DNA from: a virus
Length of the DNA stretch: 43,236 nucleotides
Reading direction: 5' to 3' (one strand)
Virus record (IMG/VR): IMGVR_UViG_3300021057_000008
Coordinates: 1-43,236 of that record
Below are positions 5,176 through 29,417 of the stretch, piece after piece; the first letter of the stretch is position 1; each line of letters starts with the position of its first letter. Below the pieces are notes generated by a model. It did not search any database and was not told the origin of the DNA. It saw only the letters and a list, made by a program, of their open reading frames with translations. The position numbers and the translations under genes were made by a program.

Positions 5176-6018
5176 ATGCAAGATATCATCAAAGATTCAT
5201 ACACGCTGATGCTTGGGGATTGCCTTGAGCGGATGCGGGAGATTCCGGACGGGAGTGTGGACATGGTTTTCGCTGACTTGCCTTACGGCACCACCCAGTG
5301 TCGCTGGGATGTAATGATTCCCTTTGAGCCGCTATGGAAGGAGTATTGGCGGGTTTCGAAACCTGCCGGGGTTGTTGCGCTATTCGGCAGCGAGCCCTTC
5401 AGCAGCCAGTTGCGGAACAGTCAGCTTGAGCATTTCAAGTATGACTGGATATGGGACAAGGCCAACCCTTCGGGGTTCCAGTTGGCCAAGAAAATCCCAA
5501 TGAAACAGCACGAGATTATCTCTGTTTTTTACCGAACAGCTGGAGCCTATACCCCACAGACAGAGCCCAAAGCGAAGCCAAGAAAGACTCGACACTACGG
5601 CAAGTCATCCGAAGTCTCGCCGCTCCGACACGTTAGTGCAGAAAACCACGAAGTGGCTGTGTCGTACCCGAAGACGATTTTGCGGTTCTCCAATGCTGAC
5701 CGGAGGAACCGGCTGCACCCCACACAAAAGCCCGTTGATTTGCTTGAGTACATCATCCGCTCATACACGCAGCCAGGCCAGGTTGTTCTCGATAACACCA
5801 TGGGTTCTGGTTCCGCTGGGGTAGCGGCCCTGAACACTGGACGGCGGTTCGTCGGCATCGAGAAGGAACTCAATTACTTCGAGGTTGCAGCGAAGCGGAT
5901 GGCCGAGTCGCTCGCTCAATCCGCCGGTACCACATCAGGCACGCCGCAAACTCCAGCAGGCCCTGATGATTCTGCACCTTCCGCTCATAGCGTATCCGCA
6001 GTCCCCGGTAATTGTTGA
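5176..6018 (+). CDS. DNA adenine-type methyltransferase (N6/N4 family, beta order)
   Basis: A 280-residue S-adenosylmethionine-dependent DNA methyltransferase of the N6_N4_Mtase family. The catalytic motif ADLPYGTTQCRWD (DLPY at 34-37) lies near the N-terminus. HPTQKP (181-186) and the AdoMet-binding DNTMGSGSAG (206-215) are near the C-terminus, the motif order of the beta class. DLPY suggests adenine rather than cytosine methylation. The last 35 residues are Ser/Thr/Pro-rich and probably disordered. No restriction gene is adjacent, so it is an orphan enzyme, perhaps protecting phage DNA from host restriction. Its base and codon use is visibly more AT-rich than its neighbours, suggesting recent transfer. 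Confidence 0.9.
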   Translation: MQDIIKDSYTLMLGDCLERMREIPDGSVDMVFADLPYGTTQCRWDVMIPFEPLWKEYWRVSKPAGVVALFGSEPFSSQLRNSQLEHFKYDWIWDKANPSGFQLAKKIPMKQHEIISVFYRTAGAYTPQTEPKAKPRKTRHYGKSSEVSPLRHVSAENHEVAVSYPKTILRFSNADRRNRLHPTQKPVDLLEYIIRSYTQPGQVVLDNTMGSGSAGVAALNTGRRFVGIEKELNYFEVAAKRMAESLAQSAGTTSGTPQTPAGPDDSAPSAHSVSAVPGNC

Positions 6019-8229: not shown

Positions 8230-10452
8230 ATGGCCGCAGATCTAAAGCCCGTCGACAAGGAGCAGGCCAAACCCTCCAAGCCCGCCAGGGCCTTTCGCTC
8301 CGACTCCGACAATCCCATTCTGAATCTGATTGATGGCGAGCTCGAGAAGACGGCCGCCATGACGGCCGTAGATCCGGACAGCCAGTACAACCCCTGGAAT
8401 CCGGACGACCTCTACCAGAAAGAGGGCAACTACTCCGTCTACGAAGACATGATGAAGGACGATCAGGTCTCGGTCGCTATGGCCGTAAAGAAGGACCTAA
8501 TCATCGGCTCGGGCTGGCATATCGCCTGCGAGGAAGAGGACCAAGACGAGATCAAGGCAGACCTTGAGGTCGCCCTCGGCGAGGACATCGAGACCTCCTT
8601 CGACGATTGCCTCTCCGACATCCTGACGGCCTATGACATCGGTTTCAGCGTCACCGAGAAGCAATTCAAGACGCGCGACGACGGCACGGTCACGCTCAAG
8701 GCGCTCAAGACGCGCAACCCCATCTCCTGGCTCCTCCACCAGGACAAGTTTGGAAATGTCGTCCGCTACGAGCAGCAGGGAACGACACGAGAGTTCGCGG
8801 ACATCGACCCGAACTCCATCATTCACTTCGTCAACGCCCCGCGCTACGGCAAGCCCTACGGCACGAGCGACCTCCGCGCAGCCTACGCGGCGTACTTCAT
8901 CAAAAAGCAGATCATCCGTTTCTACGCAATCTTCCTTGAGAAGGCCGCGTCACCGACACCGGTCGCCAAGTACGATCGCAACATCGCGCAAGATTCCGAG
9001 ATCCAGAAGCTCCACGACACGATCAAGAAGCTGCAGACCTCGTCGGCCCTCACGATCCCGAAGGATCTCGAGGTCGAGTTCCTGGAGCAGAAGGGCAACA
9101 GCGGCGATACCTATATCAACGGCATCAACATGTTCAACATGTTCATCGGCCGCGCCCTCTTCGTGCCGGACCTTCTGGGCTTCTCCGGCGGCGAGATCTC
9201 CGGTGGCAGCTACGCGCTCGGCGAGCACCAGCTCAAAGTCTTCTTCAAGCACATCTGGCGGCGCCGGCGCAGCCTCGAGAACCTGATCAACGCGCACATC
9301 GTGAAGCCGATCGTCACGTGGAACCACGGCTTCCTCGACAACTACCCCAAGTTCAAGCTCAACCCCATCGACGAGAGTGTGGCGACCGAGAACGCCAAGC
9401 TCTGGCTCGAAGCCGTCAAGGGCAAGGCATGGAAGCCCTCCCTTGAGGAGATCAATAGCTTTAAGCGCATCATCGACTTCCCGGAGACCTCGGAAGAGGA
9501 GTGGGAAGAGCAGCAGCAGGACGCCATCGAAGAGGCAGCGGCGATGGCCGAGACGCTCAAGGGTGGCGAGCCCAAAGCGGACGAGGAGAAGAACGCCGCG
9601 CCGCCGGCCAAGGAAGACAAAGAGGCCTTCGCCAAGGCCTATAACTTGCCGGACGGCGATTACCATAAAAAGACCAACTTCCGCGCCATCGAGAAGCAGC
9701 TCGACAGCAACCTCGACCTCTTCCTGGCCAAGACCTCGCCTCTGATAAAGAGCGTCATCGACGGCTTCGCGGCACGCCTCCGCAAGCTCAACCTCTCCAA
9801 CGCTCAGAAGCTTGAGAGCCTAGAGAAGCTCGCGCTACCCAAGGCCGACCTCAAGCGCCTCGAGAAGCTGCTCGACAGCTCTTTCGCCGAAGCCTTCGAT
9901 CGCTCGCGCGAGATGGCGCACGGCGAGATCTTCAAGACCACCTTCGCCGTGCAGCCGGCACCGGAGTTCCTGAAGACGCTCGAGGAGGAGGACTACAACT
10001 TCATCCGTGACTGGGAATACCAGCTAACCAAGAAGGCCCGCACCGAGATCATCGCTGCCGTGAAGGACGGGCGCCCGATCTCGTCCGTGATCGACATCAT
10101 GGCTGGCGAAGGCGCGACCGAGGCCGCAGCGGCCGTCGAGCGCTACGCTCGCACCAAGTTCACCGAGGTGACGAATAAAGGGCGCCTTGACTATTTCAAG
10201 AGCACAGGTGTCGTCGGGGCGTACCAGTACTCAGCAGTGCTTGACGCACAGACGACCCACATCTGCCGCGGCCTTCACAGCAAGGTCTTCAAGGCGGGTA
10301 CCGAGCCCGTCCCCCCGCTCCACTTCAACTGCCGCTCGCTTCTGATCCCGATCACGAACTTCGAGGTGTGGAAGCCCGACACCAAGGTCGGCGGCAAGAA
10401 CATCGACGACTTTATCGAAGAGAACAAGGGAAGGGGCTTCCCGCGTGGGTGA
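8230..10452 (+). CDS. Portal protein fused to MuF head morphogenesis domain
   Basis: A 740-residue fusion. Residues 1 to about 450 match the DUF935 (Mu gp29-type) portal, the ring through which DNA enters and leaves the head. Recognisable pieces are the SGWHI segment after an N-terminal helix, YDIGFSVTEK, and FVPDLLGFSGGEISGG near 310. An acidic low-complexity linker (about 420-470) leads to a helical region and then the MuF-type domain (about 560-715), marked by VLDAQTTHICRGLHS near 670 and PLHFNCRS near 700. MuF proteins are minor head proteins; fusion to portal in one chain is less common than separate genes. No toxin domain follows the MuF part. Confidence 0.9.
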   Translation: MAADLKPVDKEQAKPSKPARAFRSDSDNPILNLIDGELEKTAAMTAVDPDSQYNPWNPDDLYQKEGNYSVYEDMMKDDQVSVAMAVKKDLIIGSGWHIACEEEDQDEIKADLEVALGEDIETSFDDCLSDILTAYDIGFSVTEKQFKTRDDGTVTLKALKTRNPISWLLHQDKFGNVVRYEQQGTTREFADIDPNSIIHFVNAPRYGKPYGTSDLRAAYAAYFIKKQIIRFYAIFLEKAASPTPVAKYDRNIAQDSEIQKLHDTIKKLQTSSALTIPKDLEVEFLEQKGNSGDTYINGINMFNMFIGRALFVPDLLGFSGGEISGGSYALGEHQLKVFFKHIWRRRRSLENLINAHIVKPIVTWNHGFLDNYPKFKLNPIDESVATENAKLWLEAVKGKAWKPSLEEINSFKRIIDFPETSEEEWEEQQQDAIEEAAAMAETLKGGEPKADEEKNAAPPAKEDKEAFAKAYNLPDGDYHKKTNFRAIEKQLDSNLDLFLAKTSPLIKSVIDGFAARLRKLNLSNAQKLESLEKLALPKADLKRLEKLLDSSFAEAFDRSREMAHGEIFKTTFAVQPAPEFLKTLEEEDYNFIRDWEYQLTKKARTEIIAAVKDGRPISSVIDIMAGEGATEAAAAVERYARTKFTEVTNKGRLDYFKSTGVVGAYQYSAVLDAQTTHICRGLHSKVFKAGTEPVPPLHFNCRSLLIPITNFEVWKPDTKVGGKNIDDFIEENKGRGFPRG

Positions 10453-10603: not shown

Positions 10604-11911
10604 ATGCCCCTTTCGAGCCAGATGCACGTTCCCGCACTGATGGGCGAGGACGAGCACTCGATCAGATACGGCTGCGCACCCGAGGAGTACGAAGCCGAAG
10701 GCCACGAGACGAAGGACATGGACGGGGTCCTCGTCACGATGGCCAGGCGCAAGGGCGACGGCGCTATGGGCGTCGTGGCGTGCGAGTTTATGAAGCCCGC
10801 TTTCGACACCGACAAGGCCCATGCCTGGTTGGCCGCTCAGAAGTTCTCAATTGAGCCGGCCGACCTGCATGCGGTCAAAGACGTGGAGATCTTCTCCACC
10901 GGTCTTTGGAACGGAAAGCAGATCACCGACCAAGATCTCGACCGGATCGTCGAGGCCTACCACTCAACGAGGGGGACGGTTGCTCCGTTCCTGAAGCTAG
11001 GCCACGACGAGGACCAAAAGCTTCTGCAGCAGGATGGTCTCCCGGCGGCCGGCTGGGTGGAGAATGTCCGCAAGGTCGGCTCGAAGCTCGTCGCGGACTT
11101 CGTCGACATCCCGAAGAAGATCTATCAGCTCATATCGAACCGGGCCTACCGGAAGGTAAGCTGCGAGATCTACAACAACGTAAATATCGACGGCGCGACC
11201 TACCCCAAAATGCTTGGGGCCGTAGCGCTCCTGGGTTCCGACCTCCCGGGCGTGCTGAACTTGAGCGACATCCTCTCGCTCTACTCGCGACCCAGCCATG
11301 CGCCGTCCATTGCAAAATTTGCGAGGTCCGAGGCGGCCGCTATAATTAGTTCAGTAGACATCCACACAAATCGCGAGGACGGCATGTCGCAGGAAGTCGA
11401 CGCGTACAAAGCCAAGCTCGAGCAAGCCGAGAAAGACGTGGGGGACCTGAAAGAGCAGGCCGCCGCCGCTCAAGCTGAGGTCGAGAAGTATAAGAAGGAA
11501 GCCGAGGAGGCGCGTACCAAGGCCGCCGAAGCCGCCGCCAAGGAAGAGGCCGCGAGGGTCGACGCCTTCGTGACCGAGCTGCAAGGCGAGAAGCTCTGCA
11601 GCAAGGCTATGGCGCCCATGGTCAAAGAGCTCATGGGTCCCGAGAAGGAGACCTATGCGATCGGCGAGAACACGGCGGCTACCAAGCGCGACCTCCTGAA
11701 GGAGATCCTGAAGGGCGCCAAGGAAGCCTCCAAGGTCAACTTCAGCGAGACGACCAAGGACGAGAAGGCGGCCGACAAGCCCGACCTCGAGGCCGAAGTC
11801 GAGAAGTACGCCAAGGACAACAAGGTCTCCTTCGGCGCCGCGTATCGCGCGGTGACCCGCGGCAAGGACCTCGCGGCCAAGGCCATGTACCAAGAAGAAA
11901 TGGACGCCTAA
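10604..11911 (+). CDS. Head maturation protease / scaffold (Mu I-like)
   Basis: A 435-residue protein. Residues about 90-235 match the Mu gpI-like prohead protease, with WNGKQITDQDLDRIVEAY and the PAAGWVENVRKVGSKLVADF segment typical of that family. Residues 261-345 are a Glu/Lys/Ala-rich coiled coil, the scaffolding part on which the prohead assembles before being cleaved. The C-terminal 90 residues are helical. It precedes decoration and major capsid genes as in Mu-like heads. An internal promoter and in-frame start (11384) could produce the scaffold alone, as Mu Z and lambda Nu3 do. Confidence 0.85.
   Translation: MPLSSQMHVPALMGEDEHSIRYGCAPEEYEAEGHETKDMDGVLVTMARRKGDGAMGVVACEFMKPAFDTDKAHAWLAAQKFSIEPADLHAVKDVEIFSTGLWNGKQITDQDLDRIVEAYHSTRGTVAPFLKLGHDEDQKLLQQDGLPAAGWVENVRKVGSKLVADFVDIPKKIYQLISNRAYRKVSCEIYNNVNIDGATYPKMLGAVALLGSDLPGVLNLSDILSLYSRPSHAPSIAKFARSEAAAIISSVDIHTNREDGMSQEVDAYKAKLEQAEKDVGDLKEQAAAAQAEVEKYKKEAEEARTKAAEAAAKEEAARVDAFVTELQGEKLCSKAMAPMVKELMGPEKETYAIGENTAATKRDLLKEILKGAKEASKVNFSETTKDEKAADKPDLEAEVEKYAKDNKVSFGAAYRAVTRGKDLAAKAMYQEEMDA
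11319..11346 (+). promoter_or_regulatory. Internal promoter inside the protease gene
   Basis: TTGCGA (11319-11324) and a perfect TATAAT (11341-11346) are 16 bases apart. This is 38 bases upstream of an in-frame ATG with a ribosome binding site. In such GC-rich coding DNA a TATAAT at correct spacing is unusual. It would give extra transcripts for scaffold, decoration and capsid proteins, which are needed in large amounts. Confidence 0.5.
11384..11911 (+). CDS. Predicted internal start: free scaffold protein
   Basis: The ATG at 11384 (Met261 of the protease-scaffold) lies in frame and has GAGGA five bases upstream. Translation from here gives a 175-residue protein consisting of the coiled-coil scaffold and the C-terminal helices without the protease. 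Nested scaffold genes are well known in lambda (Nu3 in C) and Mu (Z in I). This entry is inferred from the start signals and the domain boundary. Confidence 0.5.
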   Translation: MSQEVDAYKAKLEQAEKDVGDLKEQAAAAQAEVEKYKKEAEEARTKAAEAAAKEEAARVDAFVTELQGEKLCSKAMAPMVKELMGPEKETYAIGENTAATKRDLLKEILKGAKEASKVNFSETTKDEKAADKPDLEAEVEKYAKDNKVSFGAAYRAVTRGKDLAAKAMYQEEMDA

Positions 11912-15134: not shown

Positions 15135-15163
15135 GTTTGGTGAGTATCAAGGGAGCGAACCGA

Positions 15164-16159
15164 GTGAGCCAAGAGCAGCACGAGCTAGACGTAGTAGCGC
15201 AGTCGAGGGCGGCCTATGGCCAGTGGTGCAAGCAGTGGCGCGAGCACGCCAAGCAACACGCGCGCTACAAAATGCGGGACCTCCTCGACTTTCAGAACAT
15301 CGGTGTCGGCAAGGCGTGCCTTGTCATCGCCAATGGCTATAGCTTCGAGCAGAACATCGAGACCATCCGCAAGTACCAGGGGAACGTCGATATCCTCTGC
15401 GTCGACAAGTGCCTGGCCCACTGCCTCCAGAACGGGATCGTTCCGACCTACTGCCTTGTCTGCGATGCCAATGTCTCGGCCGAGAAGTACCTCGAGCCCG
15501 TGAAGGACCAGCTCCAGAACACGACGCTTCTGATCAACGTCTGCGCTAATCCGAAGTGGTCGGGCCAGGGCAATTGGAAGGACACCTATTTCTTTGTCAA
15601 TAAGGACGTCCTGAAGTCCGAGCGCGAGTTCATGGCCCTCTCGGGCTGCCCGAACGTCATCCCCGCCGGGACCAACGTCAGTAACGCCGCCATCGTTATG
15701 CTGACGCAGTGCGACGAGACCGGTCGCAAGAACTTCTTTGGCTACGACAAGCTCTTGATGATCGGCTTCGACTACTCGTGGGGCGAAGAGAGCTACTACG
15801 CCTTCGACAAGACAGGCAGCGGCAAGCGCAACTATATGAAGTCGGTCTATTGCTTCAACCTCGCCGGCGAGATGGTCTATACGTCGCCGAACCTCCTCTT
15901 CTCGGCCAAGTGGATCGAGAAGTATGTCGGCGTCTTCAAGATTCCCGCCATCCAATGCAGCCGGTCCTCGGTCGTCAGGGGCCACAAGGTCGGCAACCTC
16001 GCCGAGCAGATGCAGTACCGCTACAAGCCCGAAGATGCGAAAGAGGTCATCTCGTTGCTAGAATATCGACGAGAGTACGAAGCCAAGATCTCTGGGATTA
16101 ACCGGCGGATCCTCGATATCGGCCGGGACCATTTCAAACAGCTTATAAGGACGACCTAA
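15164..16159 (+). CDS. DUF115 / Maf-like protein (putative glycosyltransferase-related)
   Basis: A 331-residue protein starting with GTG 15164, GGGAG eight bases upstream. It matches the DUF115 (MptE-like, Maf_flag10) Rossmann family: KACLVIANGYSFE (50-62), then VDILCVDKCLAHCLQNGIVP and YCLVCDA (97-102), then VIPAGTNVSNAAI and MIGFDYSWGEESYY. Maf proteins of this family transfer nonulosonic acids to Ser/Thr of flagellin. It is inserted in the virion operon between the tail terminator and the tail tube, stopping two bases before the tube gene. A role in glycosylating a virion protein is inference. Other DUF115 proteins are pterin kinases. Confidence 0.75.
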   Translation: MSQEQHELDVVAQSRAAYGQWCKQWREHAKQHARYKMRDLLDFQNIGVGKACLVIANGYSFEQNIETIRKYQGNVDILCVDKCLAHCLQNGIVPTYCLVCDANVSAEKYLEPVKDQLQNTTLLINVCANPKWSGQGNWKDTYFFVNKDVLKSEREFMALSGCPNVIPAGTNVSNAAIVMLTQCDETGRKNFFGYDKLLMIGFDYSWGEESYYAFDKTGSGKRNYMKSVYCFNLAGEMVYTSPNLLFSAKWIEKYVGVFKIPAIQCSRSSVVRGHKVGNLAEQMQYRYKPEDAKEVISLLEYRREYEAKISGINRRILDIGRDHFKQLIRTT

Positions 16160-16160
16160 C

Positions 16161-17207
16161 ATGGCAGTAGGCGATACCGCCCTGTTTTCCGGGGAAAGCT
16201 ACCTGGGGTTCGGCCGCGAGACGACTTACGGCACGTACGCGACGGCCGGGGCGGGCCTCGACTTCCTGTCGGCGTCGATCAAGACCATCAAGGACTCGAA
16301 AATCCTTGAGCAGGTCGAGCGCAAGCGAACCATGTCCAAGGCCTTCTCGCTCGGGAAGACGGTCGAGGGTGAGGTCGAGGCGTATCTGGCGCCCGAAGTC
16401 ACCGCCATGGGCTTTATCCTTCAGAACGCCTTCGGCGGAACGGTGACGAGCGCGACAGCGACCGGCGAGACCGCCGGCGGGGCCGCCTTTACGCACACGT
16501 TTAGCGAAGGGTCGATGGACCAGACGTACAAGGCGCTTTCGGTCAACCATCGCAAGGGACCGTCGTCCGGCGGCAAGGTCTGGCGCTACAGCGGCGGGCG
16601 CGTCAATAGCCTCGCCCTGACGGCCGAGCTCGACGAGCCCCTCAAGATGAACGTTGGCCTGATCTTCAAGGACTCGACGCAGCAGTCGGACGACATCGAG
16701 TCGCTGATGACGGCAACCGCCTTTGAGGTGCTGAGCTTCGCCAACGGCCGCTTCTCGGTCGAGAGCAACTTTGCCAGCCTGACCTCGACGAGCTTCTGGC
16801 ACGTCCAGAGCATCAACTTCGCCCTCAACAACAACCTGAAGAACGACAACCTGGCCCGCAGGATCGGCTCGGACGTCCTGTCCGTCCTCCCGGTCGGTGT
16901 TCAGAGCTATGAGCTGTCGTGCCAGATTCGCTTCGATACGACGACGGCCTACGACGCCATGATCAACGCCACGGAACTCGCAGCAGAGTTCGAGTTCCAA
17001 GGCACGACGATGACCACTTCGGTGATCAAGCGCGGCCTCAAGGTTCAATTCCAGAAGCTCGTCGTGAAGGACGCGGGAGACCCGGAAATCAGCGGGCCGG
17101 ACGATGTCCTTGTCTCGACCGTAGTCTTCAACGTCCTGCGCGACGAATCTGCGGCGGGATATGCCGTCCGGGCGCTACTTACCAACAACGTCACGAGCTA
17201 CGCGTAA
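16161..17207 (+). CDS. Major tail tube protein
   Basis: A 348-residue protein with AAGGA upstream. It starts LFSGESYLGFGRETTYGTYA, the usual opening of the long siphophage tail tube proteins, and is rich in beta strands, Thr, Ser and Asn. Subunits stack into hexameric rings that form the tube. The position directly before the frameshifting chaperone pair and the tape measure confirms the role. Its stop overlaps the next start (TAATG). Confidence 0.85.
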   Translation: MAVGDTALFSGESYLGFGRETTYGTYATAGAGLDFLSASIKTIKDSKILEQVERKRTMSKAFSLGKTVEGEVEAYLAPEVTAMGFILQNAFGGTVTSATATGETAGGAAFTHTFSEGSMDQTYKALSVNHRKGPSSGGKVWRYSGGRVNSLALTAELDEPLKMNVGLIFKDSTQQSDDIESLMTATAFEVLSFANGRFSVESNFASLTSTSFWHVQSINFALNNNLKNDNLARRIGSDVLSVLPVGVQSYELSCQIRFDTTTAYDAMINATELAAEFEFQGTTMTTSVIKRGLKVQFQKLVVKDAGDPEISGPDDVLVSTVVFNVLRDESAAGYAVRALLTNNVTSYA

Positions 17208-20122: not shown

Positions 20123-20902
20123 ATGGAGCTTCTTCGAGCCAACTTCGTCAATACGACCACTGCGATCAGTGTCATCAACAATACGGCGTCGGCGTCAAAC
20201 CTTCTGAACTCGGACACGAGGTTTCAGTACTTTACCGACCAGATGAACGACGACGCCACCACGGCTGCGATCACGATTAGCTTCACGCAGACGACGACTG
20301 TCGACCGGATCGCATTGGTAAACCACAACTGGAAGGCGTTCACGATCTTCTACAACGGATCGACCGCCAACACTCTCAACCTGACGGCAACGTCCAATAC
20401 GACGACGTCCGACTACAGCTCGAATTCCGACACCTCGCACTACTTTCGGTTCGCTCCGATCAACGCCGTTACGATCAGCATCCATGCGAAGTCGACCATC
20501 GTGGCGAATCAAAATAAGTACCTTGGCTACGTCGTTGTCTCGGAAAAGCTGACGAACTTCGGCGGACGGATCCCATCGGCCAACAGGTATCAGCCGGTCC
20601 TGGACTCACAAGGCGTCGTTCACAGGCTCTCCGATGGCGGAACCCGCATCCAGACGATCGAGGACAAGTGGAGCGTCAATATGGCGTTCGACTACCTCAC
20701 CGAGGACGTGCGCGATGAACTGAAAGAAATCTTCGACGACCACGAGGAGCTTGTCTTTGCGCCGTTCGGTACGACCACGGGATGGGACGCTGTGATCTTT
20801 CCCTGTGTCTGGGAGGGCGGCTTCGAATTCTTCCGCTATAGCGACAATGCTAGCGAGGCGGGATTCAGCGGCGGGATCAAGCTGAGGGAGACGCCGTTTT
20901 GA
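20123..20902 (+). CDS. Distal tail / minor tail protein
   Basis: A 259-residue beta-rich protein directly after the tape measure, with GAGGGGA upstream. The N-terminal half is Thr/Asn/Ser-rich and has a discoidin-like feel (VDRIALVNHNWKAFTIFYNG); the C-terminal part (WSVNMAFDYLTEDVRDELKE and VWEGGFEFFRYSDNA) looks like a tail-tip domain. Position fits a distal tail (Dit-like) protein that joins the tube to the tip. Confidence 0.65.
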   Translation: MELLRANFVNTTTAISVINNTASASNLLNSDTRFQYFTDQMNDDATTAAITISFTQTTTVDRIALVNHNWKAFTIFYNGSTANTLNLTATSNTTTSDYSSNSDTSHYFRFAPINAVTISIHAKSTIVANQNKYLGYVVVSEKLTNFGGRIPSANRYQPVLDSQGVVHRLSDGGTRIQTIEDKWSVNMAFDYLTEDVRDELKEIFDDHEELVFAPFGTTTGWDAVIFPCVWEGGFEFFRYSDNASEAGFSGGIKLRETPF

Positions 20903-22287
20903 GCCGTGTGACACCCACTCTGTGGGACTTGGACAACTGGGATGAGATGCTGTGGAGTCCGACTTCGGACATCAAGCAGCAGATCAAGCGGCCACACAGC
21001 TGGGTCTTGCGGAAGGCCTACATCAAGCGTCGAGATGCCGTCTCGGGCCTATTCGAGGCGAACTGGTTCGAGGTCACCAACGATGTGAAGCGTTGGGGCT
21101 CAATCAACACCGACATCGACGTCGAGAAGCTCGGCCGACTCTCCTTCTCGGGCCTTCAGCTCGTGATGGCCAACATCAATGGCAGCTACAACCCGGAAGA
21201 CAACGAGGACAGTCTCTGGAGTGGCTACGCTAACCAGCAGCGCTCGCTCGTTAAGCTCGAACTCGGCTTCTACCACCGCTGGCTAGGGAGCGATGGCGTC
21301 TATCGCATGGACGTCGTCCCCGAGGACCCGACTGTGTTTGTCGGGATCATCTCCGGCGACATGGGCGCCTCAGACGAGAACGAGGTTGTGCTCAACGTAC
21401 AGCCTCTGTCGCAGATATTCCGCGACTTTCCGGCTCACTTGATTACGGGTTACACCAGCACCGGAGTCTCGGCCAGCCAGTACATGGAAATGCTGCGTGA
21501 CCAGACGGACGGCTCCGGGAGCTTCATTTTCCGACCGTTCTTCAACAACACGACGAGCTACTGGGAGATCACCTCTACTAGCCACGTCTATGCAAATCTA
21601 AGCACCAGTACGGCCGACGATCTCTATCAGATGACCGTGTGGGATGTCGTAGAGAAGCTGGGGCAGTGCGAGAACTACGTCGCGTACATCTCACCGACTG
21701 GAAAATTCAGGTGGGTTCCGAAGACGGAGGGTGCCTCGGCGACATTCTCCTTCTTCGGTGTCGGCTACGCGCCGGACACCGAGTACGGCCACACGATCAA
21801 GCGGATCTTCCGTTACGGCAAGAAGCTCACGAACTTCTATTCGCGCGTGGCCGTGAAATTTCAGAACACGAACTCCAGTGCGGCGTTCGTCAACACTGGT
21901 CTGTCGTTCGCCGTGAGCGGCTCGAACACCGCCTGGAACCTCGGGCATCGAACGTTCTCGGTCGAGAACTTTTGGATCCCGAACAGCGCCGCCGCCGCCA
22001 GCATCGCCGGCGCGATCTTCGACCAGGTCTCCTCGCTCAAGGAGGAGATCAACTTCTCGACCTCGCTCGTTCCCCACCTGAACCTGCTAGACCGAGTGAA
22101 CATCACCTACGATGCGACCGACTTCTCGACTCGAAACGAGTTTTGGGACATCGGCGACTGGGATGACATCACTTGGGATGCCTCCCGTGGCGATGCAATC
22201 GTTTTGCAAAACGCTGCCTTTAAAGTAATATCGATCAATATAAATCTCGATAATCTGGAGTCGCGCTTCGTCTGTCGTAAGCTTTGA
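20899..22287 (+). CDS. Tail tip hub / tail-associated protein
   Basis: A 462-residue protein starting at TTG 20899 (four-base overlap with the previous stop) or at GTG 20908. It begins WDLDNWDEMLWSP and repeats a similar motif near the end (WDIGDWDDITWD). The middle has the mixed beta pattern of hub proteins (gp27-like / Tal N-terminus), including VLNVQPLSQIFRDFP. It probably closes the tail tip and carries the fibres. No peptidase motif is visible. Confidence 0.65.
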   Translation: MSRVTPTLWDLDNWDEMLWSPTSDIKQQIKRPHSWVLRKAYIKRRDAVSGLFEANWFEVTNDVKRWGSINTDIDVEKLGRLSFSGLQLVMANINGSYNPEDNEDSLWSGYANQQRSLVKLELGFYHRWLGSDGVYRMDVVPEDPTVFVGIISGDMGASDENEVVLNVQPLSQIFRDFPAHLITGYTSTGVSASQYMEMLRDQTDGSGSFIFRPFFNNTTSYWEITSTSHVYANLSTSTADDLYQMTVWDVVEKLGQCENYVAYISPTGKFRWVPKTEGASATFSFFGVGYAPDTEYGHTIKRIFRYGKKLTNFYSRVAVKFQNTNSSAAFVNTGLSFAVSGSNTAWNLGHRTFSVENFWIPNSAAAASIAGAIFDQVSSLKEEINFSTSLVPHLNLLDRVNITYDATDFSTRNEFWDIGDWDDITWDASRGDAIVLQNAAFKVISININLDNLESRFVCRKL

Positions 22288-22355: not shown

Positions 22356-23312
22356 ATGGGAAAAGCTCCGCTAGAGCCCTATCGGGCCTATCGCGAAAAG
22401 TACCTCAATGCCCCGAGCCTGGGCCTCACTGTCCCGGTCGACATCTCGCTCGAGCTGTCGAGCTTCTGCAACCAGCACTGTGGCTACTGTTACCACGCCG
22501 ACAAGAAGAACCTGCCCTTCAAGCAGCAATTCATGCTGCCAGAGACGATCAAGAAGATCCTGCGGCAGGCAGCTGATCTAGGCGTCCACTCGGTCAAGTT
22601 CAACTGGCGCGGCGAGTCGACGATGAACCCCTTTTTCGGGGCCGCGACCGCCATGGCGAAGGGCCTGGCCGCTGGCGCGACCTTTATCGACCGCCTGACC
22701 AACTCGAACTTCAAGTTCGACACCAAGCGGGACGACATTTTCAAAGGCCTCTGTGACCAGACTAAGGTCAAGGTCAGCTATGACTCGTTCCGACCCGAGG
22801 TCTTTGAGCGGCAAAGAGCAGGCGGGGATCACGCCCTAACGACCGCCAATATTGACCGCTTCTACAACTGGCCTGGCCGCGACAACGTCCTCGTTATCCA
22901 GGCCGTGAGGACTCGCCTCAACGCCAACGAGGACATCGAGGGCGAGGCCAAGAAGCGCTGGCCCGCAGCCCTGATCTCGATCCGAGACATGGTCGAGGGT
23001 CGGGTCGCGAAGGACCTCTCGGCGATCAAGCACCGGGAGCGCGACTACTCGGAGCGCCAGTCCTGCATCCAGGCCCACGCGCGTCTGATCTTCGATTGGG
23101 ACGGTACGGCGGTGGCCTGCTGCCCGGACATCCGCCAGGAGCTCAAGCTCGGTAACATCCGCGACATGACGGTCTCTGAGATTTTCAACTCGGAAGCCGC
23201 CAAGCGCCTGCGCGAGGACCTGCTGTCGCTCAAGGCCTTCGAGCGTTCGCCGTGTAAGAACTGCTCGAGCTTCGAGACGTACAAGGGCTTTACGCCTTCC
23301 TGGGGATCGTAG
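22356..23312 (+). CDS. Radical SAM enzyme with SPASM-like C-terminus
   Basis: A 318-residue protein with AAGGAC upstream. The radical SAM cluster motif CNQHCGYC gives Cys38, Cys42 and Cys45 (CX3CX2C). GESTMNP (86-92) corresponds to the GE motif. The C-terminal region has Cys237, Cys255, Cys256, Cys300 and Cys303 in the arrangement CIQAH...ACCPD...LGNIRD...EIFNS...SPCKNC, a SPASM/twitch auxiliary cluster domain. Such enzymes modify peptides or small molecules, including sugars. Being first of the sugar cassette, it may remodel a sugar or nucleotide sugar; the substrate is unknown. Confidence 0.88.
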   Translation: MGKAPLEPYRAYREKYLNAPSLGLTVPVDISLELSSFCNQHCGYCYHADKKNLPFKQQFMLPETIKKILRQAADLGVHSVKFNWRGESTMNPFFGAATAMAKGLAAGATFIDRLTNSNFKFDTKRDDIFKGLCDQTKVKVSYDSFRPEVFERQRAGGDHALTTANIDRFYNWPGRDNVLVIQAVRTRLNANEDIEGEAKKRWPAALISIRDMVEGRVAKDLSAIKHRERDYSERQSCIQAHARLIFDWDGTAVACCPDIRQELKLGNIRDMTVSEIFNSEAAKRLREDLLSLKAFERSPCKNCSSFETYKGFTPSWGS

Positions 23313-23313
23313 C

Positions 23314-24678
23314 GTGGTGGCTAAGACCGGCATCGTCGTGTGCTCGCGCACCGATTCGCAGCGGCTACCGAACAAGCCCTTCATCAAGATCAAGGGCAAG
23401 TATCTACTCGCCTACCTACTCGATCGCCTGCTTGCGACGGGGCTATCGGTCTATCTCGCTGTGCCGGACGATGAGGTGGAGACCTATCGCAGGAACCTAG
23501 CGCTGTATCTCGACGGCAAGACCGTCTTTCTCTTTGGTGGCGTAAGGGGCGACCCGCTCAAGCGAATGCACGACGCCGCCGAGCACTACGATCTTGATCA
23601 CATCATCCGAGTCAACCACGACAAGATCTTTATCAACTACAAACAGGTCGATCACTTCCTTCACTACTACCTCGAGAACCGCAACGACTACCTCTATTCG
23701 ACGAACTTCATCCCGGGAATGGGGTTCGAGATCTTCTCCCGGGATGTCCTGGTGCGTGCCCACCAAACGTTCAAGGACGTTGAGCACATCAGTTACGCGG
23801 TGGAGTCAGTAGCTCGTTCGGTTACGAATCTCACCCTCTTTCCGTATAGCCGCACCTGGCTCAGTCGCCGCAAGCCCAACTCGGGACTGCGTCTCTTGAT
23901 CGACTATCCCGAGGACGTGGAACAGATCTCTCGCGTCATCTCCAAGGCGGGGACTGATTGCGGCATTACTGGCATCGTCGATGTCATTGACAACGCGCCG
24001 CAAGCCAACTCACTTCCCGACGTGACGGTCTACACGTGCAGCTACGAAGACGTCGAGTACCTCGACCGCTGCGCGCAGAGTGTTCTTGGCCAGTCGCTTC
24101 CGAGCTTCGAGTACCTGCTGCTAGATGACGGGTCCGTTCGCACGCCGGTCCACAAGCACATGGAACGGTATCGGAAGGACCCCAGGGTCCATGTCGTCCG
24201 AAATCAGGCCAACCGGGGACTCGCGAGCTCTTCGAACGTCGCCAACGCAATGGCGAGAGGGCGCTATGTCATCCGTCTCGACGCGGATGACTACTTTGTG
24301 GACGAGAAGGTGCTGGAGCGCATGGTGCGCTACATGGACCAGACCAACGTCGATATCCTCTATCCCCACAACTACAAGAACGGGCGGATTCAGGAGGGCT
24401 GCGAGCAGCACCATGTCGGCGGCTCGATGTTCAAGAAGCGAACGCTCGACTATCTGCGCTTCACCGACAGTCTCCGCCACTTCGAGGGCCTCGACCTCTA
24501 CCGCCGTGCGATGTTGGCCGGCCGAAAGATCGGCTACTTCACGGAGCCCACGTTCTACTATCGCCAGCGCAGCGGCTCTCTAAGCAAGAGCTGCACCGAA
24601 GAGCGTCTGGAGGTCGCGCGCAAGATCGAAGAGGGAATTTTGGGCGAAGAACTGGTTGGGGTGCGTCGTGCGCTCTGA
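23314..24678 (+). CDS. Cytidylyltransferase (SpsF/NeuA-like) fused to family 2 glycosyltransferase
   Basis: A 454-residue two-domain protein. Residues 1-230 match the CTP-transferase family of SpsF and CMP-nonulosonic acid synthetases: CSRTDSQRLPNK (10-21, Arg12 and Lys21 for phosphates) and RVNHDKIFI near 99-107 in place of RxTxDxPxI. Residues 236-454 are a GT-A family 2 glycosyltransferase with DVTVYTCSYED, DDGS (271-274) and the metal-binding DADD (323-326). A single chain could both activate a sugar with CTP and transfer it. GTG start at 23314, one base after the previous stop. Confidence 0.88.
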   Translation: MVAKTGIVVCSRTDSQRLPNKPFIKIKGKYLLAYLLDRLLATGLSVYLAVPDDEVETYRRNLALYLDGKTVFLFGGVRGDPLKRMHDAAEHYDLDHIIRVNHDKIFINYKQVDHFLHYYLENRNDYLYSTNFIPGMGFEIFSRDVLVRAHQTFKDVEHISYAVESVARSVTNLTLFPYSRTWLSRRKPNSGLRLLIDYPEDVEQISRVISKAGTDCGITGIVDVIDNAPQANSLPDVTVYTCSYEDVEYLDRCAQSVLGQSLPSFEYLLLDDGSVRTPVHKHMERYRKDPRVHVVRNQANRGLASSSNVANAMARGRYVIRLDADDYFVDEKVLERMVRYMDQTNVDILYPHNYKNGRIQEGCEQHHVGGSMFKKRTLDYLRFTDSLRHFEGLDLYRRAMLAGRKIGYFTEPTFYYRQRSGSLSKSCTEERLEVARKIEEGILGEELVGVRRAL

Positions 24679-25027
24679 AGCAATCGACATCCTGAAGCTC
24701 TATGCCGGAGGCTCGCACAGCGAGTGGAACGCTTTCCTGAGCAGGGCTCTCGACAGTGACGACGTCCCGGGGCTCACGGATGTGCTGCGGCGCCTCCAGA
24801 TGGGTATGGACGACCTCGTTCGGCAGAAGCTCAACACCGAGCGGGTCAATGTCCTCTTCCTTCGGCTCCAGCGGTCGGTCGAGAACACGCTGCGGGATAT
24901 CCACCGGAAGAAGTACGCTAACCCGCTCTATACAAGCTCCGACAAGGCCCTCCACCGGGACCACCTGGAGGACAAGCGTAGAAAGCAGCGCGAACTGGAG
25001 ACCTTCCTCAGAAAGGTTCGATACTAA
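24668..25027 (+). CDS. Hypothetical helical protein in sugar cassette
   Basis: A 119-residue, highly charged helical protein. Start GTG 24668 overlaps the glycosyltransferase stop by 11 bases; an earlier TTG at 24656 is possible. Segments such as LRRLQMGMDDLVRQKLNTERV and DKRRKQRELETFLRKVRY suggest helices that may pair with a partner. It has no recognised family. The TAATG overlap with the next gene shows that it belongs to the cassette operon. Confidence 0.55.
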   Translation: MRSEAIDILKLYAGGSHSEWNAFLSRALDSDDVPGLTDVLRRLQMGMDDLVRQKLNTERVNVLFLRLQRSVENTLRDIHRKKYANPLYTSSDKALHRDHLEDKRRKQRELETFLRKVRY

Positions 25028-25323
25028 TGTCTGACAAGGTTAAGCGGATCCCGTCATATGGAAAGAACACCGAGGAAGAGAGACTCAAAGCTCACAGGGA
25101 ATGGTTCGAAAACGAATGGCCGACAACCCGTGAGCTGATCCAGAATTTCCTGAACTCTCTGCCAGGTAAGGCCTCCCTTGTCTTCCAGCCGACAAGCGGA
25201 ACCACGACGGTTCTGATGTGCACGTCTGGTCTACCGCTAGCGGATTCGATTGGCCTCCTTGAGTGGGCGAAGAATGACTTGTGCGCTGGTATGGTCGCTC
25301 ACCGCCTACGAGACGGCCGATGA
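25027..25323 (+). CDS. Hypothetical protein in sugar cassette
   Basis: A 98-residue protein of unrecognised family, soluble, with a charged N-terminal half (NTEEERLKAHREWFENEWP) and a Ser/Thr/Leu-rich C-terminal half. It overlaps both neighbours (TAATG at 25025-25029 and ATGA at 25320-25323), so it is translated as part of the sugar cassette. No catalytic motif is evident. Confidence 0.5.
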   Translation: MSDKVKRIPSYGKNTEEERLKAHREWFENEWPTTRELIQNFLNSLPGKASLVFQPTSGTTTVLMCTSGLPLADSIGLLEWAKNDLCAGMVAHRLRDGR

Positions 25324-26045
25324 TTACGGGCCTCATCGCCGAAATCGGCAACCATCACTTCGGGGACATTGGCAAGGCAAGAGAGCTGATTCGAGCGGCT
25401 CGAGACTGCGGTGCTGCCTACGCCAAGTTTCAGGCCATTGACCCCGAAACCTTCACCGGCGGCTCTATGCCGCGTGACTTCTATTGGCAGTGTGACCTCG
25501 GCCTCGATGGCTACTTGAGCCTTGAGGACTACGGCCGCCAGCTGGGCATTCCCGTCTTCTTCTCGGTCTTCGGTCCGAAGTATGAGGCACTGAAGACATA
25601 CTGGCCTGGCAAGCCCTACAAGATCGCAGGCGGGCAGTTCGGCTCGATGTCAGACGCAGAACTCAAGACATGGAACGACCAGGATCGGAATCCTGTCATC
25701 GTTTCTGTCCCTAGCGGCAGTGCCTCGCACCTTTGGAAGAACAGGGACGTCATGACGAATATGCACGTCATGTACGTCACGCCCTACCTTCCCGAACGGG
25801 TCGAGTTCTTCGAGATCTTCGAATACGAGGACGCGCTCCACAGGTCTGTCGGCTACTCCGACCACTGCCGTGGCGTCATAAGCTGCCTAATCGCAATCGA
25901 CGACTTTGGCTGCCGGCTGATCGAAAAGCACTTCAACCTCTTCGGCAGGCAGTCGTTTCAAGGCCGAGTCTACAGAGACTCCATCCACGCAGCGAGCGCG
26001 CCCGAGCTGACGCGCTTGGCTACCCATCTTTCGAACGCGAGGTAA
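25320..26045 (+). CDS. Short NeuB-like (sialic acid synthase family) protein
   Basis: A 241-residue protein of the NeuB barrel family, which condenses a hexosamine (ManNAc type) with phosphoenolpyruvate to make nine-carbon nonulosonic acids. Hallmarks are LIAEIGNHHFGDIGKA (5-20), AKFQAIDPETF (35-45), KIAGG (101-105), GYSDHCRGV (178-186) and LIEKHFNL (200-207). The usual C-terminal SAF (antifreeze-like) domain of about 60-70 residues, which covers the active site in the dimer partner, is missing, and parts of the barrel are short. Activity is therefore uncertain. Start at ATG 25320 is fixed by the ATGA overlap and family alignment. Confidence 0.85.
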   Translation: MITGLIAEIGNHHFGDIGKARELIRAARDCGAAYAKFQAIDPETFTGGSMPRDFYWQCDLGLDGYLSLEDYGRQLGIPVFFSVFGPKYEALKTYWPGKPYKIAGGQFGSMSDAELKTWNDQDRNPVIVSVPSGSASHLWKNRDVMTNMHVMYVTPYLPERVEFFEIFEYEDALHRSVGYSDHCRGVISCLIAIDDFGCRLIEKHFNLFGRQSFQGRVYRDSIHAASAPELTRLATHLSNAR

Positions 26046-26051
26046 CCGAGG

Positions 26052-27368
26052 GTGCAATGCCCAATCTGCAGATCCGCAGCGACCAAATGGACGAACGTCG
26101 ACAAATTCCGGCAGAAGCCCGAAGGCATGTCCCTATGCGAGGCATGCGGGTTTATCAGCTATCCAGACCGCTACAAGTCGAAATCCGAAATCATCGACTA
26201 CTACAAAAAGGAGTATCGCTCCGCTCCGCAGGTCGGGAGCATCTATACGGGCGAGCGAAAGATTCAGTACCACGCCCACTTCCTCGCCGAACTCTTCAAC
26301 GAATGGCGCGCTTCAGGTCGGAAGGACATCGTAATCACCGACGTTGGATCGGCCTTCGGACTGTTCCTAAACTGGGCGAGACACCAGCTCCCCGGTGCGG
26401 ACGTTGTTGGCGTCGAGCTGACGACCTCGTACGTCCGCAATGCGTGGCACCTCTTCCAGATCAAGTCCCTCGACGAGTTCGATGACAGCCGCAAGTACGA
26501 CCTGATTTCGTCGTACAAGAGCCTCGAGCACATCCTCGACCCGGATATCGAGCTGCGCCGCTACATCTCGTGCCTCAAGGAGGACGGCGTCCTCTACCTG
26601 TCCGTTCCGCTGTGGTTCGAGCAGATGAAGAATTTCGGCCAGCAGGGATTCGACATCGAGTACTACTACAGCCCAAATCACATCAATACCTGGACCCGCA
26701 AGCACTTCGAGGGCTTGATCAAGGTGTGCGGCGGAGAGGTGGTCAAGAGGAACGACACCTATTACGAAGCAACATACCTCGTGAAGCGCAACGACTCCCT
26801 GCGCTCGGACGACAGGTCTCCACTCCACGAGTCGCCGGCGACGATCAGAGGTCACCTGGAGCGCCTCTTTGAAGCCTCGGAAGCTTTTCAGGTGGGCGAC
26901 TTCTCGAAGGTGATCGATCGTTGGCCCAATTGCCCGCCAGCGTGGTCGGCGCACTACGAAATGAACCGCAAGAGCTTCCACGAGCGAGGGTTCGAGGGCA
27001 TCTACAAAGACTTCTGCTTACCCGCCATCGCCGCATGCGAGAACGATGCCGACGCGCACTATCTGACGGCGGATATCTGCGCCCGCTACGGCCAATACGA
27101 AAAGGCTATAGGCCATCTGGACACAGCGAATCGTCTCCGCCCCAATGGGCCACACGTGTTCGGTCTGCTGATGAACTGCTTCCGAGCGCTAGGCAAAATT
27201 TCGAAGGACGAGGACGCCAGGCTAAAATTCTATGAGCAGTCCAGGAGGTGCGCGAAGATCCTCGGAGACATCTCCACCCAGCACAAGGGTGAAGCGATGA
27301 CTTGGATGATGTTCGACAACGCCAATGTCCCAACGCCTTGGGAGCAGAGCACGTCATGTCATTCCTGA
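26052..27368 (+). CDS. Zinc-ribbon SAM methyltransferase with helical-repeat tail
   Basis: A 438-residue protein with GTG start. A zinc ribbon (Cys3, Cys6, Cys29, Cys32) precedes a class I methyltransferase: motif I VITDVGSAFGLFL (94-106), acidic VGVEL near 119-123 and SLEHILDP (157-164), as in sugar C-methyltransferases and Methyltransf_23 proteins. About 290-438 is helical and tetratricopeptide-like (DADAHYLTADICARYGQYEK), perhaps for protein binding. It might methylate a sugar or a protein. Its 3' end overlaps the start of the tail fibre-like gene by 13 bases, which ties the cassette to that protein. Confidence 0.8.
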   Translation: MQCPICRSAATKWTNVDKFRQKPEGMSLCEACGFISYPDRYKSKSEIIDYYKKEYRSAPQVGSIYTGERKIQYHAHFLAELFNEWRASGRKDIVITDVGSAFGLFLNWARHQLPGADVVGVELTTSYVRNAWHLFQIKSLDEFDDSRKYDLISSYKSLEHILDPDIELRRYISCLKEDGVLYLSVPLWFEQMKNFGQQGFDIEYYYSPNHINTWTRKHFEGLIKVCGGEVVKRNDTYYEATYLVKRNDSLRSDDRSPLHESPATIRGHLERLFEASEAFQVGDFSKVIDRWPNCPPAWSAHYEMNRKSFHERGFEGIYKDFCLPAIAACENDADAHYLTADICARYGQYEKAIGHLDTANRLRPNGPHVFGLLMNCFRALGKISKDEDARLKFYEQSRRCAKILGDISTQHKGEAMTWMMFDNANVPTPWEQSTSCHS

Positions 27369-28492
27369 GCGTCAGCGCCTACACGGTCTTTGCTCCGAAC
27401 ACCAAGGCCAAGAGCGCCGAGGTGAACGCAAACAACGCCGTGAACGTGGCGTTCTTCAATACGATCACGAGCGACATACTGATCGGCTCGGCATGGCAGA
27501 AGATAGCGAGCACAGCGGCGAGTCACACGATCACTGGCTCAGATTCGATCCGGACTCTGTTCGTCAACGTCAACACCAGCGCTGGCTACACGGTTTTCCT
27601 GCCGACGGCGGCCGGAAGCACGCATCGGATGCTGACGATCAAGAATACGGGCGCTACGACCGGAACACTGACAATTGATGGCGCCGGGTCGGAAACGATC
27701 GATGGCACCACGACTGTTGCGCTCGGCGCCCAGTACGATTCCGCAACGCTTCACTGCGACGGCACGCAGTGGCACACATTGGGCCGATCTCTCCAGGCGA
27801 CCAGCGCCCTCAGCGGACTTGTTAGGACGTTCGCTCCCAGACATACGGCGAGGGTCAAGACAGCGGCTGGTGACTACACCATTCTCGACACCGACGGATT
27901 TGAGGTCTTTCTCGGGACGCATACTTCCACGCAAACCTTCACTCTTCCCACCCCTGGGAACAACACCGGTCGCGTGTTTCTCTTTAAGAAGACGGCCGGC
28001 GGCGGGTCTCTCACGGTGTCTCCGTCGTCCGGGACGATCGATGGTGTCAGCTCGATCGCGATCTACTCGCAGAATGCGACCGTTCAGGTCGTCTGCGATG
28101 GAACCAACTTCTATACGACCGGTCTGATGTCGGAGAGCGGGACGTACACGCCCACGCTCACGAACGGCAGCAACGTCGCCGCCAGTACACCGCGGGCGTG
28201 TCAGTACCTTCGTGTAGGGAACACGGTCACCATATCGGGACAGTTGGACGTAGACCCGACGGCGGCTGCAGCTACGGGTACAGAGATCGGCATCTCTTTG
28301 CCCATTGCCTCAGACTTTGCAAACTCCTTCCAGTGCGGCGGCGCCGGCAGCAGTGGCGACCAAGTCTCCGGGACAGCGGAGTCGATGCGGATCTCGGCCG
28401 ACTCAACCAACAACCGAGCGGCAATGGCTTGGCTGTCCCAGACCACATCAAACCACACCGTCTACTTTACGTTCACGTACCTGATCGTCTGA
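27356..28492 (+). CDS. Tail fibre / receptor-binding-like protein
   Basis: A 378-residue beta-rich protein very high in Thr, Ser, Gly, Ala and Asn. After a short N-terminal segment (FLSVSAYTVFAPNTKAKSAEVNAN) it shows two repeats of a motif on the theme FVNVNTSAGYTVFLPTAAGS / TSTQTFTLPTPGNNTGRVF with following SGTIDG or GSETIDG turns, typical of phage fibre shafts. The C-terminal 110 residues form a separate beta domain (GTYTPTLTNGSNV to the end), a candidate receptor-binding tip. The Ser/Thr richness would suit O-glycosylation. It is the last virion-type gene before the lysis region. Confidence 0.75.
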   Translation: MSFLSVSAYTVFAPNTKAKSAEVNANNAVNVAFFNTITSDILIGSAWQKIASTAASHTITGSDSIRTLFVNVNTSAGYTVFLPTAAGSTHRMLTIKNTGATTGTLTIDGAGSETIDGTTTVALGAQYDSATLHCDGTQWHTLGRSLQATSALSGLVRTFAPRHTARVKTAAGDYTILDTDGFEVFLGTHTSTQTFTLPTPGNNTGRVFLFKKTAGGGSLTVSPSSGTIDGVSSIAIYSQNATVQVVCDGTNFYTTGLMSESGTYTPTLTNGSNVAASTPRACQYLRVGNTVTISGQLDVDPTAAAATGTEIGISLPIASDFANSFQCGGAGSSGDQVSGTAESMRISADSTNNRAAMAWLSQTTSNHTVYFTFTYLIV

Positions 28493-28529: not shown

Positions 28530-29417
28530 ATGGGATTCCCTTTTGTGCCGAGGGGCCCAGGATGGGCTTTCCTCGGCGCCCTCGCTCTCGTTGTCTCGTG
28601 CGGCCAGATCCCCCGCCACAAAGAGAAGCCGGCCACGCCTCGAGACGAGCGGGTCGAGCTGCTCTTAGCGCGTCTTGAGGGAGAGCGGCTGGAGCTCGCT
28701 GCGGCGTCGGATCCCTTTACGGGCTGGCCGTCGGCGACCGACTGCGACGGGCTCCTATGGGCCGGACTTGCAGCGGCCGCGGGTCAGTCGGTTGATCTCG
28801 AGCTCGCCGAGTATAGCCCTGGCGAAATGCACCGGCGCCCGAGGCCGCCCTGCTGGGACGGCGAGGACAAGGGTAGCAAGAGCACGATCTCGCGCGACAT
28901 GCTGACCGGCTACCTCTACGCCACGTGGCGCAGGAAGGACGGACACGCGGCGCAGCGCCTAGCGGAATACGGCGAGCGGCACGATTGGGTCATGGGCGGC
29001 GGCGACCGCTCTCGCACCGACATGCGCGCCAACCTCAAAGGCCTCCTCGGGCGCATGCTAGCCGCCCTCACCAGTGATCGTCCGGAGTACCGCTTTCTAC
29101 CCGCTCTCTACGTGCCCGGCGGCGCCGACTATGAGCGGCATATCGCCGTGCTCGGGGTCTTGCTTCAGGGCGAAGTCGCCGGCGGCATCCAGCACGACAT
29201 GTTTCTAACGCTGAAGGGCAACGCCGAGGACAACCCGCAGGACGCCCTCTTTCAAGCGGCCTACGGCGTCTACACCGGGGACATGGGGCCTGCTCTCGAC
29301 CTCTTGCTCAATCCGGCCTACGCGCCGCCCAAATACGTGCGTGGAGCCGAAGAGGTCTACAAGCTCGTCCACTTCGTCTTTGCAGCGGACACGGTCGTCC
29401 GCCGCTTTCAAATCTAG
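28530..29417 (+). CDS. Phage lipoprotein (295 residues)
   Basis: AAAAGGA precedes the ATG. The N-terminus has a hydrophobic stretch (GWAFLGALALVVSCG) ending in the lipobox VVSC, Cys24, so a lipid-anchored exported protein is likely. The mature part is soluble, with a Cys-containing segment (SATDCDGLLWAGLA), DMLTGYLYATWRR and HDWVMGGGDRSRTDM. I do not recognise the family. It lies between the tail fibre and lysis genes, so it may be made late, either attached to the tail or acting at the cell envelope of the infected cell. Confidence 0.7.
   Translation: MGFPFVPRGPGWAFLGALALVVSCGQIPRHKEKPATPRDERVELLLARLEGERLELAAASDPFTGWPSATDCDGLLWAGLAAAAGQSVDLELAEYSPGEMHRRPRPPCWDGEDKGSKSTISRDMLTGYLYATWRRKDGHAAQRLAEYGERHDWVMGGGDRSRTDMRANLKGLLGRMLAALTSDRPEYRFLPALYVPGGADYERHIAVLGVLLQGEVAGGIQHDMFLTLKGNAEDNPQDALFQAAYGVYTGDMGPALDLLLNPAYAPPKYVRGAEEVYKLVHFVFAADTVVRRFQI

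Follow-up and report, generated by a model that had tools for sequence, protein, structure and literature searches.

Maf-type O-glycosylation of flagellin, as known from Campylobacter, Aeromonas and Clostridium, couples a cytosolic nonulosonic acid (NulO) synthase and a cytidylyltransferase to a transferase of the PF01973 family, encoded beside the gene for a tube-forming structural protein. The Maf enzymes transfer nonulosonates activated with cytidine monophosphate (CMP) to Ser/Thr residues of flagellin, and the version from Clostridium botulinum (CbMaf) transfers N-acetylneuraminic acid (Neu5Ac) and also 3-deoxy-D-manno-octulosonic acid (Kdo) to Ser/Thr (PMC11339370). Among phages, glycosyltransferases of mycobacteriophages have been described to O-glycosylate capsid or tail proteins (Freeman et al. 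2023, as cited in PMC11256854 and PMC11652166). Here, we analyze a window of 43,236 bases, the whole IMG/VR virus record IMGVR_UViG_3300021057_000008, whose tail operon contains a sugar-modification cassette (22356–27368) and, upstream of it, a gene for a Maf-like DUF115 protein (15140–16159). We consider it probable that this phage possesses a complete glycosylation module in the style of the flagellin systems, cytosolic and core to the tail operon of its lineage, with which it would make a CMP-ulosonate for a virion protein. All of the evidence comes from sequences and models, from which we computed the gene content, synteny, conserved catalytic residues, the fold of DUF115 and the repeated swap of one enzyme; the CMP-ulosonate product, the protein acceptor and the virion location are what we infer.

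In common with the Maf flagellin systems, the phage locus combines a synthase, a cytidylyltransferase and a PF01973 protein, and the breadth of CbMaf, whose donor range can cover Neu5Ac and Kdo, is that which the enzyme exchange described below would demand. It differs from them in that the neighboring genes are those of the tail tube and fibre, that DUF115 represents the core domain alone, that the synthase lacks the SAF domain or belongs to the DAHPS family, that a family 2 glycosyltransferase (GT2) is fused to the cytidylyltransferase, and that a radical SAM/SPASM enzyme and a methyltransferase are always present. Since the full-length Maf architecture and a flagellin neighbor were looked for and not found, this is not a Maf flagellin system proper; rather, by analogy, it would work in the manner of Maf-type glycosylation of flagellin, transplanted to the tail operon of a phage. 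The mycobacteriophages likewise deploy phage-encoded glycosyltransferases, but with other genes and in other hosts, and the two citing papers name glycosyltransferases only, with no sugar synthase or CMP activation; as far as those papers go, encoding donor synthesis within the tail operon sets the present phage apart. Bacillus spsE and spsF combine a NeuB-family synthase (SpsE is among the structural relatives of the phage enzyme) and a CTP-transferase that shares its Pfam family with that of the phage, but serve the spore coat and lack both DUF115 and the GT2 fusion. The GtrABC serotype conversion systems of phages also include a GT2 glycosyltransferase, but unlike them the present cassette has no flippase or membrane GtrB, has its own CMP-sugar synthesis and lies in a virion operon. 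In the open-licence literature on phage DUF115/MptE-like or phage-encoded nonulosonic acid genes, we did not find such a system described.

A conserved cassette in the tail operon

Six plus-strand genes make up the cassette, coding in turn for a radical SAM/SPASM enzyme, a fusion of cytidylyltransferase and GT2, a small protein predicted to be helical, an orphan, a NeuB-like synthase and a methyltransferase with a zinc ribbon. All the genes named in the preliminary description were recovered in the order and orientation it gave, and the 13-base overlap that it reported between the last of them and the tail fibre gene is correct (methyltransferase stop at 27368, fibre ATG at 27356). A chance order is unlikely: the identical arrangement is seen again in more than 20 related records. 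The radical SAM/SPASM enzyme (22356–23312; PF04055, E 1.9e-7; PF13186, E 2e-12) has a CxxxCxxC motif (C38/C42/C45) and further cysteines (C237/255/256/300/303) that are unchanged across 24 records. The same holds for the N-terminal CxxC/CxxC (C3/C6/C29/C32) and for G99/A101/G103 of the zinc-ribbon S-adenosylmethionine-dependent methyltransferase (26052–27368; PF13489 Methyltransf_23, E 8e-14), which has a TPR-like C-terminus (weak TPR_2 match). The two small proteins, earlier presented as a pair of unknowns, are indeed both without a family, but they are not equivalent. The first, u123 (119/123 aa; 24668–25027, with GTG 24668 as the most likely start), is found in 21 of the 22 related cassettes and is predicted to be all-helical (AlphaFold, AF2, model; predicted local distance difference test, pLDDT, 90), with no fold match in the PDB. 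The second, a 98-aa open reading frame (ORF) between u123 and NeuB (25027–25323), is peculiar to the window, with no family match and no counterpart ORF in the related cassettes. A radical SAM enzyme acting on a short leader peptide was considered and dropped; the preceding gene is that of a fibre or, in the window, of the tail protein g20899. HNH/NUMOD4 homing-endonuclease genes sit within some of the cassettes (L087:16386-16889, with related ORFs at 16455 in L065 and 13347 in L049).

The related records are metagenomic fragments, and absences were judged only where the stretch in question was covered. Used alone as a query, NeuB retrieved a single related contig, whereas the capsid, DUF115, radical SAM and tail-protein queries retrieved many more. 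The relatives share one architecture: a completion gene, DUF115, the tail tube, a small gene, the tape measure and two tail proteins, followed downstream by a variable fibre block and then radical SAM, CTP/GT2, u123, the synthase and the methyltransferase. The cassette recurs with its order fixed in 24 related records; in one relative (L072:11721-18661, minus strand) the entire cassette is flipped as a single block while the rest is collinear. We also picked relatives independently of the cassette with the tail protein g20899 (20899–22287, plus strand; weak match to the tail family phrog_1887), a query that was in turn constructed from sequences of this lineage: all 18 records so selected with at least 8 kb downstream contain radical SAM, CTP/GT2 and either NeuB or DAHPS. 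Mean pairwise identity over the 24 records is 0.53 for both DUF115 and the tube, 0.55 for radical SAM and 0.43 for both CTP/GT2 and the methyltransferase, so that the cassette genes are conserved to the same degree as the tail genes, and their distances track those of the tube (r 0.44–0.56, permutation p 0.0005). Horizontal cargo was ruled out by the GC content of the cassette (0.56–0.61), which equals that of the tail genes, together with this divergence in step. Given the shared architecture and the presence of the cassette in 18 of the 18 g20899-selected records, the cassette is a core module of the tail operon of this lineage, not cargo or a stray insertion.

Two observations that would have told against the preliminary description, namely a loss of catalytic residues across homologues and homologues lying mainly outside virion operons, were not made: the residues are invariant in 24 records, and the relatives found carry the genes inside the virion operon. 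Phage isolates yielded no match to DUF115, NeuB, radical SAM or the methyltransferase, and the GT2 part matched only generic phage glycosyltransferases among them. A viral scan with the fusion as a single-sequence query gave no match, GTDB genomes scanned with the radical SAM and DUF115 alignments yielded no relative, and PLSDB plasmids gave no match.

The synthase slot and predicted sugar activation

The NeuB-like ulosonic acid synthase of the window (25320–26045, plus strand; PF03102, E 2.9e-13) comprises a TIM barrel only. Its start is most likely ATG 25320, in an ATGA overlap with the preceding stop, giving a protein of 241 aa. PseI (8h2c), SiaC and SpsE are its relatives in the PDB, and the catalytic Glu, Lys and two metal-binding His (E21, K49, H195 and H217; alignment numbering, with the ORF from 25281) are kept in the window and in most relatives. 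NeuB fills this slot in the window, in G001, G006 and G002 and in others; in many relatives it is filled instead by an enzyme of the DAHP/KDO8P synthase family (PF00793, E about 1e-43; 3-deoxy-D-arabino-heptulosonate 7-phosphate and Kdo 8-phosphate, respectively). At least one of the two is kept in 24 of 24 records. Both families catalyze the same type of reaction, the condensation of phosphoenolpyruvate (PEP) with an aldose to a 3-deoxy-2-ulosonate. The full-length DAHPS-type members conserve the Cys/His/Glu/Asp metal site (GPC or GSC, SHG, VE.H and SD), and they are closer to DAHP synthase (E 8e-70) than to KDO8P synthase (5e-20). The erythrose-4-phosphate motif of DAHPS, KPRTSP, is replaced by RAGTYP or RAGTFP in 14 of 14. 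In DAHP synthases the Arg of this motif binds the substrate phosphate; with the motif replaced, the DAHPS-type enzymes likely have a changed substrate, perhaps a non-phosphorylated one, which would match NeuB. Residue equivalences for NeuB, DAHPS and GT2 were set by motif position and general knowledge.

When the synthase label is mapped on a tree built from four proteins of the tail operon, it changes five times, with at least four of these changes forced by well-supported branches. Two records, L049 and L052, hold both synthases. In the NeuB copy of L049 (12649-13335) the general Glu is gone (IAE to IAN), as are both metal-binding His (SDH to KDK and EKH to EKN), these three being the equivalents of E25/H215/H236, while the adjoining DAHPS-type enzyme keeps its metal site; judged by these motifs, the dead copy is a relic of a swap. 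In L052 the motifs are intact in both. The simplest reading of these sequence patterns is that the NeuB/DAHPS-type exchange represents a functional replacement. As the reaction of either family, between PEP and an aldose, yields 3-deoxy-ulosonic acids, the product of the cassette is most likely a CMP-ulosonate. The original suggestion that the phage makes or activates a sugar is thus strongly supported, with the slot swapping two families of the same product class and the catalytic motifs all conserved.

Activation would fall to the cytidylyltransferase of the KdsB/SpsF type, which is fused to the GT2 domain in one ORF (23314–24678, plus strand; CTP_transf_3 PF02348, E 1.3e-16; Glycos_transf_2 PF00535, E 1.5e-24). 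Its RxxSxRxPxK signature (S15, R17, P19 and K21) is unchanged across 24 records, D103 is also conserved, and the GT2 domain is intact, with its LDADD (DxD) and D394 conserved. The relatives of the fusion in the PDB are the cytidylyltransferase 6oew, KdsB and chondroitin synthase. As previously noted, a UDP-sugar dehydrogenase-like gene precedes the terminase, but a TerS-like ORF and a DNA methylase lie in between. This enzyme (3633–4505, plus strand; PF00984 and PF03721) is shortened to 290 aa and lacks the UDP-binding domain. In relatives, a UDP-sugar dehydrogenase lies within the cassette: in L036 and L050, together with an epimerase, and in L046, which has a full-length version (L046:10936-12183). 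As the L036 copy (L036:4407-5234) is 63% identical to that of the window, the latter plausibly belongs to the cassette system despite the 18 kb between them.

These features bear on the proposal that two functions are combined, in which DUF115 would glycosylate the tube or another virion protein with a host CMP sugar, and the cassette GT2 would modify the fibre with a glycan of the uronic acid type. The intact GT2 with its best structural relatives among enzymes polymerizing glucuronic acid/N-acetylglucosamine, the recurrence of the dehydrogenase as an accessory and the 6 kb that separate DUF115 from the cassette in the window are consistent with such a division. We nevertheless regard it as improbable: the co-occurrence of DUF115 with the cassette, which the preliminary description had proposed to look for in related phages, was found in every record covering both, and their distances are correlated (r 0.50), though this correlation is common to all genes of the operon.

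The Maf-like DUF115 protein and candidate acceptors

The DUF115/MptE-like protein (15140–16159, plus strand; PF01973, E 1.3e-14) scores 54.7 bits against a curated cut-off of 34.6; its start is GTG 15140, with TTG 15137 or GTG 15164 possible. It does precede the tail tube, as had been described: the ORF ends at 16159 and the tube starts two bases later at 16161, an adjacency retained in every related record that covers the region upstream of the tube. Profile comparison with the Maf 5mu5 gave E 4.7e-5. An AF2 model built with 15 phage sequences (pLDDT 89; predicted template modeling score, pTM, 0.85) had as its best PDB match in Foldseek the Magnetospirillum Maf glycosyltransferase 5mu5 (E 3.6e-11; query-normalized template modeling score, TMq, 0.58), followed by the archaeal 6-hydroxymethylpterin pyrophosphokinase (HPPK) 8sd5 (E 2.6e-5) and, at a marginal E of 3e-3 (probability 0.96), by human sialyltransferases (ST8SiaIII). 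Among viral models, the best matches were DUF115 proteins of uncultured phages, one at 55% identity. We hence predict DUF115 to be a Maf-type (GT29-like) glycosyltransferase. That the pyrophosphokinase is the second structural match, that PF01973 takes its name from MptE and that the synthase of the relatives is closer to DAHP than to KDO8P synthase raise the idea of a cofactor or aromatic module, with DUF115 as a 6-hydroxymethylpterin pyrophosphokinase (MptE/HPPK) and the DAHPS-like enzyme as an entry to chorismate/folate. This is very improbable: NeuB freely replaces DAHPS, which would be senseless for folate, the KPRTSP motif is altered throughout, DUF115 matches Maf far better than HPPK, and a CTP-transferase and a GT2 are also encoded.

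Two virion proteins are candidate acceptors. The tail tube (16161–17207, plus strand; PF18906 Phage_tube_2, E 1.7e-28) is the neighbor of DUF115, which has no flagellin gene beside it. The tail fibre (27356–28492, plus strand; phrog_20556 baseplate) stands out as the richest in Ser+Thr, at 27%. A fibre gene whose N-terminal motif is conserved is found directly ahead of radical SAM, or one gene away from it, in 20 of 20 relatives; the fibre that comes after the methyltransferase in the window and in L043 has a related N-terminus. The cassette proteins have no transmembrane segments (highest 19-residue hydropathy 1.47), which argues against a role in lipid-linked surface glycans. With the Maf-like enzyme always beside the tube, the cassette always beside a fibre gene, and membrane or lipid-carrier enzymes lacking, the best inference is that the sugar is attached to a virion protein by the Maf-like enzyme, with tube and fibre both as candidates. 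Alternatively, the CMP-ulosonate might go onto a host surface glycan (lipopolysaccharide, capsule or glycolipid), changing receptors or blocking superinfection, in keeping with NeuB, KdsB-type and GT2 enzymes being typical of surface polysaccharide loci, with weak PHROG matches of the GT2 part to GtrB of O-antigen conversion, and with an integrase that makes lysogenic conversion conceivable. Yet the cassette has no GtrA flippase, membrane-spanning or lipid-carrier enzyme, its genes keep their place inside the virion operon in 24 records next to fibre rather than immunity genes, and its constant partner is a Maf-type protein glycosyltransferase adjoining the tube gene; further, virion operons are kept silent in prophages. 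We therefore see a host-glycan target as unlikely.

For attachment to a virion protein, we propose the following course. The NeuB-like enzyme, or its DAHPS-family counterpart in other members, would condense PEP and an aldose into a 3-deoxy-2-ulosonic acid, which the cytidylyltransferase domain would turn into its CMP-activated form. From there, the Maf-like DUF115 would move the ulosonate onto Ser/Thr residues of a virion protein that the same late operon encodes, the tube and/or the fibre. The fused GT2 domain may lengthen the glycan, with UDP-uronate (uronic acid) where the UDP-sugar dehydrogenase is present, and the methyltransferase and radical SAM enzyme may tailor the sugar or the acceptor. 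Several points weigh against this scheme. DUF115 corresponds to the central domain of Maf alone (341 aa versus a 632-residue target; target-normalized score, TMt, 0.33), its GxGPSxD-like motif is modified to NGYSFE (with G68, S70 and E72 unchanged across 24 records), and pterin pyrophosphokinase shares its fold. No SAF (antifreeze-like) domain was matched in the window NeuB, which stops after the barrel; in known NeuB enzymes this domain assists aldose binding. CMP sugars are not known to be used by GT2 enzymes, which makes the fusion with the cytidylyltransferase hard to explain. Finally, nothing in the cassette was recognized as an enzyme for making the aldose (2-epimerase, aminotransferase and the like), and the aldose must therefore be supplied by the host.

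Genomic context and implications

The window features genes of the siphophage type: an integrase (585-1703), a large terminase (position 6459), a portal–MuF fusion, capsid, tail tube and tape measure. The fusion is a 740-aa ORF (8230-10452) with a Portal_Mu portal joined to a Mu F-like head morphogenesis domain, and relatives give an equally long match. The DNA methylase between the TerS-like ORF and the large terminase is an N6_N4_Mtase (5176-6018). A tRNA-His called by ARAGORN at 10733-10810, within the head protease ORF, is probably a false positive. Directly 3' of the fibre, the unassigned protein at 28530-29417 has a lipoprotein-like N-terminus (GALALVVSCG) and might function at the cell surface or in exclusion. 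A promoter scan across the tail operon gave no signal above chance.

We tentatively extend the proposal for virion glycosylation as follows: the lineage may O-glycosylate its tube or fibre by a Maf-type transferase as an obligatory step of assembly, with a self-made CMP-ulosonate, much as bacteria treat their flagellum; the sugar, possibly novel, might derive from a repurposed DAHP synthase and a non-phosphorylated aldose, and its identity might be switched by synthase exchange. That such a sugar hides the phage from host recognition or tunes adsorption, as first suggested, is speculation. Few phages have been shown to glycosylate their virions; in the present case, an uncultivated lineage appears to carry, among its core tail genes, those for making, activating and transferring the donor. 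The repeated exchange of two families in one slot serves as a natural experiment in how glycans are switched, and predicts what Maf-type enzymes accept. The system would also yield compact, soluble enzymes for putting sialic-acid-like sugars on proteins.

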